Assembly (NCBI GenBank): GCA_947475845.1
Contig: CANJMO010000019.1
Coordinates: 1 to 37,487, forward strand
Length of the DNA: 37,487 bases
Direction: 5' to 3'
Source: Caulobacteraceae bacterium
GTDB taxonomy: Bacteria > Pseudomonadota > Alphaproteobacteria > Caulobacterales > Caulobacteraceae
Shown here: one piece after another, positions 26,138-33,446 of the stretch
Position numbering within the stretch: position 1 is the first letter of the stretch
Layout of the letters: each line of letters opens with the position of its first letter
Translations under genes and position numbers: made by a program
The notes under the pieces: generated by a model
Database searches by the model: none
The model's input: only the letters and a program-made list of their open reading frames with translations
What the model was told of the DNA's origin: nothing

Positions 26138-26221
26138 CAAAAAAGCCCAAGCGGGTGTCGTGGCCAGCCTTTTAGCCCGGCTTTGTGGCGATAGCTACGG
26201 CTCGGCTTCGGGTTGAATCTG

Positions 26222-28384
26222 ATGAGCCGCATCGCCCAAGTCCTGCTGCCCCTGCCCCTGCCCGAGGCTTTCGACTACGCCGAACCCGACGGCATGGGGT
26301 TGGTTCCCGGCGACATCGTCGCGGTGCCGCTCGGCCCGCGCCAGATCGGCGGGGTGGTGGTGAGCGTGCGCGACGGCGCGGGCCATAACCGGCCGCTGAA
26401 GCCGGTCCTGCACCGGCTGGATGAAGCGCCGCTGCCGCCGGGCGCCCTGGCGTTCATTGAATGGGCCGCCCGCTACAGCGTCGATGTCCCCGGCGCGCCC
26501 CTGTCGATCGCCCTGCGCGGCGCCCGCGCCCCGCGTCCCAAGCCGGCGCGCATGCTGCTGGCCACCGGCGTGCAGCCCGCCCGGCCGACACCGGCCCGCG
26601 CCCGGGTGCTGGCCGCCGCCGCCGGCGGACCGATCGCCCCCGCCGCCCTGATCGCGCAGGCTCAGGTCTCGTCCGGCGTGATCAAGGGCCTGATCGACGA
26701 GGGCGCGCTGGAAGTGCTGCTTCAGGTGACCCCGGCGGCGTTCGACGAGCCGGACCTGGACCGCCCCACCCCCCCGCTCAACCCCAGCCAGGCGGCGGCG
26801 GCCAAGGCCCTGACCCTGCTGCAGGCCCAGGGCGGGTTCCAGGCGGCGCTGCTGGACGGGGTCACCGGCTCGGGCAAGACCGAGGTCTATCTGGAGACGG
26901 CAGCCGCGCTGCTGCGCGCCGACCCGCAGGGGCAGATCCTCGTGCTGCTGCCCGAGATCGCCCTGACCCAGGCGGTGCTGGCGCGGTTCGAGGACCGCTT
27001 CGGCGTCATGCCCGGCGAATGGCACTCCGGCATCGCCCCGCCCAAACGGCGCAAGGTGTGGGAAGCGGTCGGCGCCGGACGCTGCCGGATCGTGGTCGGC
27101 GCCCGGTCGGCCCTGTTCCTGCCATTCAACAGGCTGCGCCTGATCGTGGTCGACGAGGAGCACGACGGCTCGTTCAAGCAGGAGGAGGGCTTCATCTATC
27201 AGGCCCGCGACATGGCCGTGGCCCGGGCCAAGATCGAGGGCGCCATGGTGGTGCTGGCCTCGGCGACACCGTCTCTGGAGAGCCTGTGGAACGCCGAAAG
27301 CGGACGCTACAAATGGCTGAAGCTGAAGGCGCGTCACGGGACCGCGGTCCTGCCCGACATCGGGCTGATCGACCTGAAGGAAACTCCGCCCGAGCCCGGC
27401 CGCTGGCTGTCGCCGCCCCTGGTCCGCGCCGTGGCCGAGACTCTCGGCCGTGGCGAGCAGGCCCTGCTGTTCCTCAACCGCCGGGGCTACGCGCCCCTGG
27501 TTCTGTGCCGGTCGTGCGGCGAGAAGCTGACCGCGCCCGATACCGACAGCTGGCTGGTGGAGCACCGCTATACCGGGCGCCTGATCTGCCACCTGACCGG
27601 CTTTTCCATGCCCAAGCCGAAGACGTGCCCGCATTGCGGAGCAGCCGACAGCCTGGTCTCGATCGGACCGGGAGTGGAGCGGGTCGAGGAGGAGGCGCGC
27701 CAGCTATTCCCCGACGCCAATATCGCCGTCTTCTCGTCGGATACGGTGATGGACGCCGAGGCGGCGCGGGCCCTGATCGGGCGCATGGAGGCCGGCGAGA
27801 TCGACATCCTCGTGGCGACCCAGGCCGCCGCCAAGGGCCACAACTTCCCCAACCTGACCCTGGTCGGCGTGGTCGACGCCGATCTGGGCCTGCGCGGCGG
27901 AGACCTGCGCGCGGCCGAGCGCACCTATCAGCTGCTGGCCCAGGCCACCGGCCGCGCGGGGCGGGCCGAGCGCCCAGGCCGGGCCCTGCTGCAGACATAC
28001 GCCCCCGACCACGCGGTGATGCAGGCCCTGAAGGCCCAGGACCGCGACGCCTTCGTCGCCGTGGAGATGGCCGAGCGCGAAGCCGCGCGCCTGCCGCCGT
28101 TCGGCCGCCTGGCGGCGGTGATCGCTTCTGGCCCGGACGCCGAGGCGCTGGAAACCTATGTCCGGGCCCTGGCCGCCGCGGTGCCCAACACCACCGACGT
28201 CGAGGTCTATGGCCCCGCCGACGCGCCCCTGGCCCTGGTGCGCGGGCGCCGCCGCAAGCGGTTCCTGATCCGCGCCGACCGCACCGTGGACCTGCAGGCC
28301 TTCCTCAGCGCCTGGCGCGCCCGTGTCCGCCCGCCCGCCTCTGTGCGCGTGGTCATCGATGTGGATCCCTACAGCTTCCTCTAG
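26222..28384 (+). CDS. priA: Primosomal protein N' (replication restart helicase PriA)
   Basis: A 720-residue superfamily 2 helicase that reloads the replisome at collapsed forks. The N-terminal 3'-DNA-binding domain (VLLPLPLPEAFDYAEPDG) is followed by Walker A GVTGSGKTEV, DEEH (Walker B), SATPSLES, and later motifs including TQAAAKGHNFPNLTLVGVVD and ATGRAGRAERPG. The zinc region normally has eight cysteines in four CxxC pairs; here C429, C432, C469 and C472 are present, but A438, T441 and T459 replace three of the other four, leaving C456. The nested pairing of the family predicts that one zinc site is intact and the other lost. ATG 26222 is preferred over the in-frame TTG three codons upstream (26213). 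The gene is divergent from fsa. Confidence 0.96.
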   Translation: MSRIAQVLLPLPLPEAFDYAEPDGMGLVPGDIVAVPLGPRQIGGVVVSVRDGAGHNRPLKPVLHRLDEAPLPPGALAFIEWAARYSVDVPGAPLSIALRGARAPRPKPARMLLATGVQPARPTPARARVLAAAAGGPIAPAALIAQAQVSSGVIKGLIDEGALEVLLQVTPAAFDEPDLDRPTPPLNPSQAAAAKALTLLQAQGGFQAALLDGVTGSGKTEVYLETAAALLRADPQGQILVLLPEIALTQAVLARFEDRFGVMPGEWHSGIAPPKRRKVWEAVGAGRCRIVVGARSALFLPFNRLRLIVVDEEHDGSFKQEEGFIYQARDMAVARAKIEGAMVVLASATPSLESLWNAESGRYKWLKLKARHGTAVLPDIGLIDLKETPPEPGRWLSPPLVRAVAETLGRGEQALLFLNRRGYAPLVLCRSCGEKLTAPDTDSWLVEHRYTGRLICHLTGFSMPKPKTCPHCGAADSLVSIGPGVERVEEEARQLFPDANIAVFSSDTVMDAEAARALIGRMEAGEIDILVATQAAAKGHNFPNLTLVGVVDADLGLRGGDLRAAERTYQLLAQATGRAGRAERPGRALLQTYAPDHAVMQALKAQDRDAFVAVEMAEREAARLPPFGRLAAVIASGPDAEALETYVRALAAAVPNTTDVEVYGPADAPLALVRGRRRKRFLIRADRTVDLQAFLSAWRARVRPPASVRVVIDVDPYSFL

Positions 28385-28413
28385 TCCAGTGGAGACTAGC
28401 GACCGTGCGATGG

Positions 28414-28441
28414 GTCGAATTTCGACATAAGCGGTCGATTT
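28414..28441. promoter_or_regulatory. Palindrome and partial repeat before the RHH gene
   Basis: GTCGAATTTCGAC (28414-28426) is a perfect inverted repeat around one central base. GGTCGATTTC at 28432-28441 repeats most of its left part (GGTCGAATTTC, 28413-28423). It lies in a 195-base gap of lower GC content upstream of a gene for a ribbon-helix-helix protein, so it is a candidate operator. Confidence 0.4.
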
Positions 28442-28579
28442 CAGTCCGCGCCTCAGCATCCGCCGTCCGCGACCGCTTGGGCTTGTTCGAAGCCGAGCGC
28501 TTTGGGTCGGGAACCGTACGCACGGGTCCGCGTATTACGTCGTATCGACAGTGTAAGACGACTGGGCAAAGGCGCCATC

Positions 28580-28981
28580 ATGAAGAAACTGGTGACCTTC
28601 AGGCTCGACGCTGACCTGCTCGATCGGGTGAAGAAGACGGCCCAGGCCGAGAATCGCACCCTGACCAATTTCGTCGAAACGGTGCTCATGCTCGAGGATT
28701 TGGGGCACACGGTGCTGCAGGCCAACTCGGCCGATAGCGCGCTCGATGTCGTTCGCGATCACGGCCAGATCGATCTGGTCATATCCGACCAGGCCATGCC
28801 GGGCATGACCGGCGTCCAGCTGGCCGAAGCGCTGGCGCAGATGCGGCCCGGCCTTCGCGTGATCCTGGCCACCGGCTATGCCGAACTGCCGCCGGGAACC
28901 GATCCGCGTCTGCACCGCCTGGCCAAGCCCTTCACCCAGAGCCAGCTGGCCCTGGCGGTCGACGCCATAGCCCAAGCCTGA
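28580..28981 (+). CDS. Ribbon-helix-helix domain fused to a partial receiver domain
   Basis: A 133-residue chimera. Residues 1-37 (MKKLVTFRLDADLLDRVKKT, then LTNFVETVL) are a CopG/Arc-like ribbon-helix-helix that should bind DNA as a dimer. Residues 38-130 match a response-regulator receiver from its first helix onward: EDLGHTVLQANSADSALDVV, LVISDQAMPGMTG with phospho-acceptor D70, ILATGYAELPP with T98, and LAKPF with K116. The first beta strand and its paired acidic residues, which hold Mg2+, are missing, replaced by the RHH domain, so phosphorylation is doubtful. The frame is intact. ATG 28580 lies after a weak purine stretch (GGGCAAAGG). It converges on a hybrid histidine kinase with only four bases between stops. 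Confidence 0.8.
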   Translation: MKKLVTFRLDADLLDRVKKTAQAENRTLTNFVETVLMLEDLGHTVLQANSADSALDVVRDHGQIDLVISDQAMPGMTGVQLAEALAQMRPGLRVILATGYAELPPGTDPRLHRLAKPFTQSQLALAVDAIAQA

Positions 28982-28985
28982 TCGA

Positions 28986-30998
28986 TCAAGCCTCGCGGTC
29001 GATCAGTTCGCGGACCTTGGCCGCCAGGGCGGTCATCTCGAACGGCTTGGTCATGACGTCCATGCCGTCGTCCAGGCCGCCGCCGACCACGGCGCTCTCG
29101 GCGTAGCCGGTGATGAACAGCACTTTCAGCGAGGGGCGCGCGACCCGCGCCGCGTCCGCCAGCTGGCGTCCGTTCATGCTGCCGGGCAGGCCGACGTCGG
29201 TGACCAGAAGATCGATCCGCGCGCCTGTCCCCAGCACCTTCAGCCCGGATGGACCGTCCTCGGCCTCCAAAACCGCATAGCCGCTGTCGGTCAGCACCTC
29301 GGCCACCAGCATGCGCACGATGTCCTCGTCGTCGACCACCAGCACAGTCTCCCCTGCCCCGACCTCGGCGGCAGCCGCCGGCACCGCCTCGTCCTGCGCC
29401 TCAGCGCCCGCATGACGCGGCAGATACAGGCGCATGACCGTGCCGCGCCCGACCTCGGACCACACCTGTACCTGTCCGCCCGACTGGCGCGCGAACCCAT
29501 AGACCATCGACAGGCCCAACCCCGTGCCCTGGCCCAAAGGCTTGGTGGTGAAGAAGGGGTCGAACACGCGGGCGGCCACCTCCGGCGCCATGCCCGAGCC
29601 GGTATCGGCGACGCTGAGGCAGACATAGGGACCGGGCGTCAGCTCCAGATCGCGCGCGGCGGCGGCGGCGAGCGTCAGGTCGGCGGTTTCGATGGTCAGC
29701 CGGCCGCCGGCCGGAGCCATGGCGTCGCGAGCGTTGATGCTGAGGTTGAGCAGAGCGTTCTCAAGCTGGGAGGGATCGACTTCGATCGCCCCCAGGTTGC
29801 CGGCGGCGCGCACCTCGATCCGCACGTCCGGCCCGACGCTGCGGCGCAGCAGCTCTTCCATGCCGTGGATCAGACGATTGGCGTCGGTGAGCTTGGGAGC
29901 CAGGGTCTGACGGCGGGCGAAAGCCAGCAGCCGCTGGGTCAGGGCCGCCGCGCGCCGGGCCGATGCCTGGGCCCCGTCGATATAGCGCTCGAGGCCGCTC
30001 AAGCGGCCCTGGCCGATGCGTTTTTGCAGAAGTTCGAGCGAACCGGAAATTCCGGCCAGCAGGTTGTTGAAGTCGTGGGCCAGACCCCCGGTCAGCTGGC
30101 CGACCGCCTCCATCTTCTGGCTCTGGCGCAGCGCCTCATGGGCCGCGGCCAGCTCGGCCTCCTGGTCCTTCTGCGCTGTGATGTCTCGGGCGCTGCAATA
30201 GAACCGCCCGCCTTCCGGCAGGGCGACCCAGGATAGCCAGCGATAGCCGCCGTCCTTGCAGCGATAGCGGTTTTCGAAACGAAACACCGGCTCGCCCCGG
30301 GTCAGCCGGCTCAGGCCCGCGCTGGTCGACGCCACGTCGTCAGGGTGGACCAGGCTCAGCAGCGGCGTAGCGCTGACCTCCTCATGCGACCAGCCCAGCA
30401 CCGTCGCCCAGGCCGGGTTGGAGTCCTCGAAGAAACCCTCGGTATTGGCCACGCCCAATATCTCGGGGCTCAGCGACCAACTGCGGCCGCCGACGTGCGA
30501 GCGGCGCAGGATCTCCCGCTCGAGGTTGAGGTTCAATTCCCGCAGCGCCCCCACCGCATGGTCGCGCTGGCGCACCATGGAGCGCACCGCGCCGCGGAAG
30601 GCTTCGGCCAGGATCAGGATGACCATGGCGCTGATGCCGTTGACGATGGTGCGGGCCAGGTCGGGCTGGGTGGCGAATTGGAACGAGTGCTGAACGGGGA
30701 CGAGGTAGTACCAAATCCACACGAAGGCCGAGACATAGGTCACCACGCCCGACTGCCATCGTCCGTACAGGGTCGAGATCAGGACGAAGGGATAGACCAG
30801 GGCGTAGGGTCCGGAGGTCGGCGCCCAGACGGTCACCAGCAGGCGCTCGAGGATCATGACCCCGGTGCAGGCCAGGCCGAACAGACCCTGGGCGAGCAGA
30901 GCCGCTCGGCCGGACCACAGGTCGGCGACGTCGAACTGGGCGAAACGCTGGAACGGTGTCTGCACGTCCTCCCCTGGATGCGTGCTTTGCAAGGACAC
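28986..30998 (-). CDS. Hybrid sensor histidine kinase (membrane-PAS-HisKA-HATPase-REC)
   Basis: A 670-residue inner-membrane kinase. About three to four helices at residues 30-140 ([15 protein letters not shown]-like region to [17 protein letters not shown]) resemble the DUF4118/KdpD-type sensor region. A PAS domain occupies about 175-280 ([40 protein letters not shown]). HisKA has phospho-acceptor H308 in [14 protein letters not shown], an HWE/NtrB-like AHDFNN box. The ATPase has N-box [16 protein letters not shown], and [11 protein letters not shown]. The C-terminal receiver carries [10 protein letters not shown] and D601 in [11 protein letters not shown]. The kinase therefore passes phosphate internally. 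I used GTG 30998; GTG 30965, preceded by GGGGAGG, is an alternative. The signal is unknown. No separate response regulator is adjacent except the truncated chimera facing it. Confidence 0.9.
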
Positions 30999-31044
30999 TA
31001 GCGGGCAAACCGGCCGCGGTCACGGCCCCCGCTTTTGCGGGAGG

Positions 31045-32685
31045 CTAGGCCTCGACCCCGCCCGCCCCCTCGCCCGGCTCCGCGACCGGCTCGGCATGGA
31101 CGTGGTGTTTGCGCAGCTCGACTTTCGGGATGGCGAAGATCGCCAGCAGGCCAAGGCCGACCACACCCAAGGCGGCCACGAACACCGTCGACATCGAGGC
31201 CGAGAACGCCGCCTTGACCACCGGGTCGATGGCGACCTGGGCGGCGCCGATCTGGCCTTCGTGGTTCAGCGCCAGGGCCTGCAACTGGGCCAGTCCCGTG
31301 TTGGAGCCGGCTTCGCCGCGCGCCGCCATCTCGGCGGCGAGGCGGGCCGTGAGCAGAGCGCCGCACAGGGCCGTGCCCACCGTCGAGCCGATCTGGCGGA
31401 AGAACTGGCTGGCGCTGGTCACGGCCCCGAGCTGGCCGTCGGGCGCGGAGTTTTGGGCCACGGTGGAGAACAGGCTCTGGGCTGGGCCGAGGCCAAGGCC
31501 GACGATGAACATGCGCCAGGCGACCTGGCCGACGGTGGCCCCGTCGCCCATCCGGCTCATCAGGAAGATGCCCAGGAGCAGGCACAGGGCGCCGGCGATC
31601 ATGTAGCGCTTGTAGTGGCCGGTCTTGGACACCAGCCGGCCGGCGAAGCCGCTGGACAGGACCAGGCCGAACATCATCGGCAGGATCGCCACCCCGCTCT
31701 TGGTCGCCGGCACCCCGAGGCCCAGCTGCAGGTAGAGCGGCAGGAAGGTGACCACCGCCATGAACGACATGGCGATCAGGAAAGAGGCCAGGGTAGTGGT
31801 CCAGAACGGGCGAATCTTGAACAGGGCGAGGGGCATGATCGGCTCGGGCACCACCTGCTCGACCAGCATGAACACGCCGATGCCGACGGCAAACACCGCG
31901 AACAGGCCAAGGATGATCGGCGAGCCCCACGGGTGGACGTGGCCGCCCCAGCTCAGCGCCAGCATCAGGGCGGCGACGGAAATGGCGATCAGGGCGGCCC
32001 CGGCGAAGTCGATCTTGGCCTGACGCTTCCTGACCGAGATCGGCATGCGGGTGACGATCATGAACAGCGACAGGGCCGCCAGCGGCAGGTTCAGATAGAA
32101 GATCCAGCGCCAGCCGGCGATGTGCAGACCGCCGATATCGACCGTGCCGTGCTCGGTGAAGAAGCCCCCCACCACCGGGCCGATCACGCTGGCCAGACCG
32201 AACACCGCGCCAACCATGCCGGCGTATTTGCCGCGCTCGCGCGGGGGGAAAAGGTCGCCGATCGAGGCGAAGGCGCCGGTGAACAACGCACCCCCGCCTA
32301 TGCCTTGAACGCCGCGGAACAAGATCAGCTGGGTCATGCCGCCGCCGAGCAGCGGCAGATCGCCAAACTCGCCCGACAGGCCGCACAGCCACGAGCCGAA
32401 CACAAACAGGCCGATGCCGACGATCATCACCAGCTTGCGCCCGTAGAGATCGCCGATCTTGCCCCAGATCGGCACCATCACCGTGGACGACAGCAGATAG
32501 ATGGTGGTGACCCAGGCGTAGAGCTCCAGCCCCTTAAGCTCGGCCACGATGCGCGGCATGGCGGTGGAGACGATGGTCTGGTCCAGCGCGCTCAGCAGCA
32601 GCACGATCATAAGAGCGAGGAAGGTGACCTTCTTCTCCCGGTCCGTGGGGACGTGCGGGGCGGCGGCGGCGGCTTTTGAGGTCAT
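31045..32685 (-). CDS. MFS drug:H+ antiporter, DHA2 family (14 TM, EmrB/QacA-like)
   Basis: A 546-residue inner-membrane exporter. [20 protein letters not shown] (TM1 with the DHA2 D-x-T motif) is followed by [13 protein letters not shown] (motif A), [20 protein letters not shown] (TM4 motif B region) and GPVVGGFF (motif C, antiporter signature) before [15 protein letters not shown]. Hydrophobic segments total about 14, as in EmrB/QacA. An Ala-rich N-terminus and an acidic C-terminal tail ([11 protein letters not shown]) face the cytosol. No EmrA-like membrane fusion protein is adjacent. The start ATG 32685 overlaps the terC stop by four bases (ATGA), so the pump is translated as the second gene of a terC operon. 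Substrate unknown. Confidence 0.92.
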
Positions 32686-33446
32686 GGCGCCGTCCGTACC
32701 GCCCGGCGACGGGCCCGGGCAAGCATGTTCAGGCCCTCGACGAAGCCGGAGAAGGCCATGGCGGCGTAGATATATCCCTTGGGCACATGCTGGCCGAACC
32801 CCTCGGCGATCAGGATCATGCCGATCATCAGCAGGAAGCCGAGGGCCAGCATGACGATCGACGGGTTCTTGTTGATGAAGGCCGCCAGCGGTCCGGACGC
32901 CACCATCATCAGGCCGACGGCGATGATCACGGCGGCGCACATGATCGGCAGCTGATCGGTCATGCCGATCGCGGTCAGGATGCTGTCGATGGAAAACACC
33001 ACGTCGAGCGCCAGCACCTGGACGATGGCGGCGGCGAAGCTGGTCCCCGCCTTGGCCGCCGGCGCCTTGCCGCTATCGTCATGGCCGCCGTCCTCGCCGG
33101 CCGGCTGGACCGTGTGATGGATTTCGCTGGTGGCCCTCCAAACCAGAAACAGCCCCCCGGCGGCCAGAATCAGGTCGCGCCAGGAGAAGTCATGGCCCAT
33201 CAGGGTCAGCACCGGCCGGGTCAGGCCGACGATGAACACCAGGGTCCCCAGCAACAGCAGCCGCAGGATCAGGGCCAGGCTGATGCCCAATCGACGCGCC
33301 TTGCCGCGCGTGGCCTCGGGCAGCTTGTTGGTGAGGATGGCGATGAACACCAGATTGTCGATGCCGAGCACGACCTCCATCACCACCAGGGTGGCCAGGG
33401 CCAACCATGCGGCTGGGTCGCTCGCCAAGCTTAAAAGCTGGTCCAT
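32682..33446 (-). CDS. TerC family membrane protein
   Basis: A 254-residue inner-membrane protein with about seven to eight helices. The TerC motif [19 protein letters not shown] lies near residue 25, and its counterpart [19 protein letters not shown] near residue 145; the paired acidic residues are thought to bind metal. A short His/Asp-rich cytosolic loop ([10 protein letters not shown]) separates the two halves. TerC-family members include Mn2+ exporters such as Alx and MeeF, so metal efflux or insertion of metal into exported proteins is a reasonable inference. Downstream DHA2 pump overlaps by four bases. Transcription is divergent from the atp operon. Confidence 0.92.

Follow-up and report, generated by a model that had tools for sequence, protein, structure and literature searches.

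Pseudo-receivers are recognised as receiver (REC) domains yet are without the residues for phosphotransfer, as stated in the accessible sections of PMC12632262. Receivers that share a protein with a ribbon-helix-helix (RHH) domain were found, within the portion of the open-access literature covered, only as archaeal RHH-HisKA-REC proteins, namely the Arc-type proteins of Lokiarchaeum, in which RHH and REC occur in one chain (PMC5847659, accessible text). Regarding Kai systems, the available part of PMC5520375 describes a Rhodobacter sphaeroides operon that joins a histidine kinase gene to kaiBC; the open-access literature, as far as its text was available, yielded no account of kai operons with an RHH gene, a scope outside which most subscription papers lie.

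Here, we describe a Caulobacteraceae gene in which an RHH runs into a receiver. Compared with the pseudo-receivers in the sections of PMC12632262 at hand, its product loses a whole strand rather than residues only, and carries an RHH in front. In the Lokiarchaeum proteins, to judge by the passages of PMC5847659 that could be accessed, HisKA lies between RHH and REC, unlike here; the likeness noted is one of domain content. Nor does the protein have the layout of a normal DNA-binding response regulator, in which an output domain at the C-terminus follows a complete receiver at the N-terminus; the domain order is reversed and the receiver is incomplete.

The window, by which we mean the whole stretch of DNA that was analysed (37,487 nucleotides), is one whole contig of an assembly of 2.65 Mb (101 contigs, 98.7% complete; genome G000). 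The initial annotation had called an intact frame of 133 residues, whose translation is indeed free of stops. The gene, its parts and the element in front of it are the following, G234 being a genome of the same family and L053 a kinase locus used for comparison:

28580–28981, plus strand: chimeric gene; 133 aa, intact open reading frame (ORF) without internal stop
28580–28687, plus strand: RHH module, residues 1–36; 72% identical to the G234 RHH, 58% to the Pararhizobium RHH and 57% to Bacteroides plasmid RHHs
28679–28690, plus strand: seam; window gaaacggtgctcatg, G234 RHH gaaaccaccctcaag, L053 kinase aacaccgtactcatg
28688–28978, plus strand: receiver remnant, residues 37–133 (from the last part of helix 1 through helix 5); matches PF00072 from position 16 of the profile; 53–65% identical to 38 other kinase receivers
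28530–28549, plus strand: shared upstream element GCGTATTACNNCGTATCGAC, candidate promoter or RHH operator, read off the upstream regions of the window and G234

Sequence comparisons lend good support to the view that this gene is a chimera, in which residues 1–36 would stem from an RHH protein and residues 37–133 from the receiver of a hybrid kinase. The RHH-like character of the N-terminus, proposed at the outset, is confirmed by free-standing small proteins that match residues 1–36 or 1–37 at 72%, 58% and 57% identity. In Pfam, DUF6364 (PF19891), which we take to be an RHH-like family, matched residues 1–36 below its cut-off (E 3e-4 with the whole protein, 3e-5 with the 37-residue piece); CopG_antitoxin, BrnA and RHH_1 gave weaker matches to the N-terminal piece, all below curated cut-offs. 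Beyond this family-level similarity, the N-terminal strand (residues 3–5) and the two helices (11–23 and 31–40) of an RHH are present in the structural model discussed below. The closest RHH relative is that of G234, with 72% identity over 36 residues, or 69% when its TTG start is read as Leu. A 53-residue query with the RHH part matched 2 of 299 family genomes, the window's own (G000) and G234, the latter over residues 1–37 only, and a 37-residue RHH query matched 2 of 385 genomes of the class, G000 itself and one weak match. The latter (L116:935–1614, minus strand) is an ORF of 84 aa that overlaps another of 181 aa, the larger of which looks by eye like a PIN-domain toxin; the two are possibly a toxin-antitoxin pair. 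When 101 genomes of the genus to which G234 belongs were searched, the best RHH match outside the one in G234 itself had an E value of 0.0089. An RHH-like stretch was also seen on a viral contig (L148:2487–2579), with 41% identity to the window over 32 residues and 62% to G234 over 21.

The C-terminal part is matched by the Response_reg profile (PF00072) above its cut-off (E 3.5e-12), residues 36–104 corresponding to profile positions 16–83 of 111. That the profile is entered only at position 16 bears out the earlier reading of a receiver without strand 1: nothing in the chimera corresponds to the first 15 positions, where strand 1 and the acidic pair lie, and the residues found there belong to the RHH. 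Asp residues do occur at positions 10 and 12 of the chimera, but in the RHH part. The phospho-acceptor D70, T98 and K116, already singled out in the initial annotation, all fall in nearly invariant columns of an alignment with 39 kinase receivers, which were chosen from the best 80 of 423 loci plus L089 and L090; the Pararhizobium and Indioceanicola RHH rows and the L035 receiver are not part of this alignment. The receiver part matches 36 of the 37 columns conserved at ≥ 85% in the 39 other rows (these rows average 95%, with a minimum of 87%), a flattering count in that similarity to the window was the basis for choosing the rows and that two of them, L025 and L090, are one contig. Residues 37–133, including D70, T98 and K116, resemble the C-terminal receivers of alphaproteobacterial PAS-HisKA-HATPase-REC kinases. 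In contrast to these, the chimera lacks strand 1 with its acidic pair as well as the beginning of helix 1, and has no kinase in front. Because the Mg-binding acidic pair is gone, the remnant would not be expected to take up phosphate in the normal way.

The two similarities meet within a short stretch. RHH protein similarity extends to residue 36, and DNA similarity to kinase receivers begins at 28679–28686 among the long matches listed. When the seam sequences were compared (window gaaacggtgctcatgctcgagg, G234 RHH gaaaccaccctcaagagagc, L053 kinase aacaccgtactcatgcttgaag), the parents were found to have a short interrupted match in common, as illegitimate joining predicts. The seam is in frame and lies at the end of the RHH core, so that helix B would continue straight into the remainder of receiver helix 1, coupling the two parts rigidly. 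Third codon positions have a G+C content of 0.83 in the RHH half, 0.84 in the receiver half, 0.91 in priA and 0.87 in the neighbouring kinase. The original proposal of a recombination between an RHH gene and the 3′ part of a hybrid-kinase receiver is upheld by these data, with the relatives of the two halves being separate genes and the seam placed within ∼12 bases. Loss of strand 1 through a frameshift, which had been named as a possible refutation, is unlikely because the residues in front of the receiver form a recognisable RHH with its own upstream element.

This element has the structure GCGTATTAC-NN-CGTATCGAC, common to the upstream regions of the window and G234, and ends 30 bases before the start codon in the window and 25 bases before it in G234. 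It contains CGTAT twice at a 10-base step, a repeat that would suit an RHH operator. With ≤ 3 mismatches allowed, 0.01 chance matches would be expected in the window. Exact copies are present in 2 of 299 family genomes, the window's and G234, which are the two that gave the pattern; at two mismatches, the family holds 13 sites for the element versus 12 for a reversed control pattern, and hence only the two exact sites are meaningful. A search of G000 for a regulon gave no second site at up to 2 mismatches, and the Pararhizobium upstream region is without the element at up to 4 mismatches. No promoter of the sigma-70 kind was found by a scan that alphaproteobacterial promoters may not fit. GGAAC occurs upstream of both RHH genes and was compared with what we take to be the EcfG promoter consensus; the distance to the next block differs between window and G234, and an EcfG promoter is not claimed. 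The element being common to the window and G234 suggests that upstream region and RHH arrived together.

G234 encodes the RHH in a gene of its own, behind which genes for KaiC, KaiB, KaiB and a hybrid kinase lie on the same strand; the TTG start of the RHH gene, assigned by analogy, gives a protein of 59 residues. Likewise, plasmid p3 of Pararhizobium qamdonense encodes a 62-residue RHH, annotated 'YlcI/YnfO family' and 58% identical to that of the window, with kaiC, kaiB, another kaiB-family gene and an annotated response regulator next in line. Both RHHs resemble residues 1–36/37 of the chimera, and G234 has the upstream element as well; however, both are separate proteins with kaiC next, whereas in the chimera the RHH runs into the receiver. 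The two kaiC-kaiB-kaiB-kinase operons headed by an RHH gene lie at L098:759–5426 (minus strand, the family relative) and L149:6001–10249 (the Pararhizobium plasmid), and the RHH at their head is a candidate regulator of these clock-like operons. In the window, it is a hybrid kinase on the opposite strand, not kaiC-kaiB, that comes next, and G000 gave no KaiC match at 1e-30 and no other RHH of the chimera's kind at E up to 5.

Because its nearest RHH relative heads a kaiC-kaiB-kaiB-hybrid-kinase operon, we consider an RHH parent of the kai-operon type to be moderately supported. The toxin-antitoxin RHHs annotated on Bacteroides plasmids, with 57% identity to residues 1–37, are as close to the chimera as the Pararhizobium protein is, and a kai-operon origin thus rests mainly on G234. 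An Indioceanicola plasmid RHH is more distant (44–49%) and has no kai gene among the annotated neighbours in the one annotated record. The idea that such an RHH is a general partner of kaiC was rejected: a three-sequence RHH profile matched 2 of 21 scanned KaiC loci, those of G234 and Pararhizobium, both of which are profile members (the scan left aside L190, whose contig starts inside kaiC, and the more distant KaiC loci among L164–L181). Besides Pararhizobium, 4 of 12 plasmid kaiC records were examined.

We favour, tentatively and at somewhat less than even chances once the Bacteroides matches are taken into account, the reading of the gene as an orphan RHH autoregulator that arose by illegitimate joining and whose receiver tail probably cannot be phosphorylated in the normal manner. 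The joining would have taken place at a short match and put the final 97 codons of a PAS-HK-REC kinase in frame behind the upstream element and the first 36 RHH codons. The RHH part may still dimerise and bind the element just upstream, which would make the protein an orphan autorepressor, and the receiver remnant would at most serve dimerisation or protein contacts.

The surroundings of the gene were compared with those in its two congeners, G001 and G002 (the genus comprises three genomes including G000). The relevant features are:

26213–28384, plus strand: priA-like helicase gene, left flank; ORF, named by eye; 90% identical to G002, 89% to G001
28385–31044, no strand: segment of the window that both congeners lack at this place; significant DNA similarity to G002 breaks off at 28384 and returns at 31045
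28986–30998, minus strand: hybrid histidine kinase (PAS-HisKA-HATPase-REC), convergent neighbour within the same segment; ORF with Pfam domains
31045–32940, minus strand: MFS-like transporter gene, right flank; ORF, named by eye; directly after priA in G002

From the breaks in DNA similarity at 28384 and 31045, the chimera and the hybrid kinase lie in a ∼2.66-kb segment that the congeners lack at that place. In G002, priA is followed by the MFS gene across a gap of 38 bases; in G001, a different ORF of 113 aa lies between them. The priA-MFS gap is a variable site, spanning 28385–31044 in the window, 4918–4955 in L096 (G002, nearly empty) and 1861–2265 in L097 (G001, the 113-aa ORF). These flanks bear on whether the fusion is an artefact of draft or metagenome assembly. 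Such a misjoining could be suspected in an assembly of 101 contigs where the window is an entire contig, but we regard it as very unlikely: both flanks match the priA-MFS neighbourhood of the congeners, neither parent was found elsewhere in the assembly for misjoining, and the reading frame continues across a seam placed where the RHH core ends.

The same segment contains the hybrid kinase that the initial annotation had placed four bases away, as the gap at 28982–28985 between the ends of the two genes confirms, and had suggested as the source or partner of the receiver. Despite this proximity, a role of the kinase as receiver donor or dedicated partner is the least probable of the explanations considered, one to which we give hardly any credence. 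Its receiver is 42% identical to that of the chimera, versus 51–64% for 39 other kinase receivers, and no RHH of the chimera's kind was seen within the flanks taken around its best relatives (14 loci, L101–L114). Phosphotransfer to the chimera, as would befit a partner, is unlikely without the acidic pair.

The receiver part rather resembles a subfamily of PAS-HK-REC kinases (51–64% identity, against 42% for the neighbour). The best receiver matches in the congeners (59% and 62%) are located at the C-terminus of PAS-HK-REC kinases. G000 has 14 other receiver matches, all ≤ 42% identical, the neighbouring kinase being the one at 42%, and no intact receiver donor was found in its assembly. The lowest pS, 0.38, was obtained against the G001 kinase (among nine pairs, two of which are the same contig); the value for priA between the same genomes is 0.30. 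This fits, but does not prove, a donor from the same lineage.

Deletion within a single kai operon had appealed as an explanation of the whole gene, with the RHH first and a REC kinase last in such operons. It was rejected because the kinases that close the two RHH-kaiC operons are, in their receivers, only 42% and 33% identical to the chimera. Another Kai-like operon may have donated the receiver. In five of the 80 loci kept (L030, L032, L064, L069 and L087, ∼2.4–6.3 kb), a KaiC-like gene, 27–30% identical to Pararhizobium KaiC, directly precedes a kinase with a receiver of the chimera's type; the L032 kinase extends over two frames. Separately, the kinase region after kaiC-kaiB in Sinorhizobium sp. 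B11 (L193:6973–8455) carries annotations of two genes that overlap and may represent a single, frameshifted kinase.

None of the collections searched yielded a second copy of the fusion. Both congeners are without it, and none of the best 80 of 423 related stretches has an RHH of the chimera's kind; most matches in these 80 start at residue 31 or later, and the six that start earlier are full receivers with an acidic DDD in long kinase frames. Among plasmids, 726 records matched with the whole protein as query, of which 15 cover ≥ 80% of the chimera; the 15 plasmid matches listed cover 73–77% and start at residue 31. Residues 1–53 matched 8 plasmid records, one of which, from Planktothrix, covers most of the query at 38% identity and is annotated as a DUF6364 family protein. 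The plasmid DNA matches listed fall in the receiver part, and a DNA query of upstream region plus RHH gave only matches at E 0.3 or worse. Phages yielded no match to the chimera, and viral contigs one receiver match at 43%.

The confinement to a single genome is what would be expected if the gene were a neutral scar, i.e. a by-product of recombination with a frame open by chance and no function yet. We consider this a close rival of the autoregulator reading and nearly as likely. The fusion occurs in one genome and in neither of the two congeners, the other 298 family genomes returned only G234 with the RHH part only, and the central strand of the receiver has been lost. The intact frame, the hallmark receiver residues, the rank of pN/pS (19 of 39) and the 72% identity of the RHH to that of G234 speak against a scar, but they weigh little because none of them is surely post-fusion. 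Specifically, the pN/pS of the receiver part, ranked among the window and 38 kinase receivers (L025 dropped), is unremarkable for such a domain; many pairs have a high pS, and most of the divergence is older than any fusion. Conserved columns and pN/pS are as expected of a working domain or a recent fusion alike. The initial annotation had held that the proposal would fall if the fusion were seen in no relative and the gene were under no purifying selection. The first part applies, in that no relative with the fusion was found, while on the second the receiver part has an ordinary pN/pS, albeit one that mostly reflects the time before the fusion.

The structure of the full-length monomer was predicted with AlphaFold from 41 alignment rows, of which 39 are receivers and one is an RHH besides the query. 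The model has a mean pLDDT of 77 and a pTM of 0.73, with residues 1–30 at 45–61, and consists of strand 3–5, helices 11–23 and 31–40, strand 44–46 and then ordinary receiver elements; helix 31–40 crosses the seam. When the receiver piece was modelled alone, pLDDT was 90 and no strand formed at 44–46. The best PDB matches by Foldseek were receivers or receiver-like designs with rmsd 3.3–7.2 (among 50 matches listed; one domain can fill the list). In a second structure alignment, residues 1–133 of the model aligned with CheY 5–126 (113 aligned, rmsd 2.0 Å, Z about 15), the rows listed again being receivers or receiver-like designs. The ranges of the CheY alignment, taken by themselves, suggest with low confidence that the position of receiver strand 1 is occupied by the strand of the RHH.

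If so, the RHH strand would replace the lost one and the protein would be a complete pseudo-receiver with a longer helix-1 region and no RHH action. We judge this unlikely, although the chances given to the different explanations are not exclusive, as such a strand swap overlaps in part with other readings. Strands 3–5 and 44–46 of the model and the alignment with CheY agree with it, as does the absence of strand 44–46 from the receiver fragment alone. However, the first 30 residues have low pLDDT in a model whose alignment is nearly all receivers, an RHH dimer cannot form in a monomer run, and the alignments of Foldseek itself are looser. Moreover, the fragment is confident even without strand 1, and the predictor may simply fill an empty slot. 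More doubtful still is a bolder form of the idea, which we think improbable, in which a structural element passed by recombination from one fold into an unrelated one: the RHH strand would complete the central sheet of the receiver, and a clock-operon regulator and a kinase receiver would have become a single new phosphate-independent fold that could toggle between a DNA-bound RHH dimer and a closed pseudo-receiver. For the autorepressor reading, the model is a point to the contrary, as it lacks an RHH dimer and hints, at low confidence, that the RHH strand belongs to the sheet of the receiver; another is that the gene is known from one genome only, without an orthologue that shows constraint after the fusion.

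The locus represents a traceable case of gene birth by a fusion that cut through a domain: relatives of both halves are known, the seam is narrowed to ∼12 bases, and an upstream element appears to have been carried along. If the protein folds, it tests how a receiver manages once its central strand is gone, and whether a strand of foreign origin can stand in for it. Finally, with an RHH of this kind heading at least two alphaproteobacterial kaiC-kaiB-kaiB-kinase operons, the RHH parent points to a possible regulator of clock-like systems.
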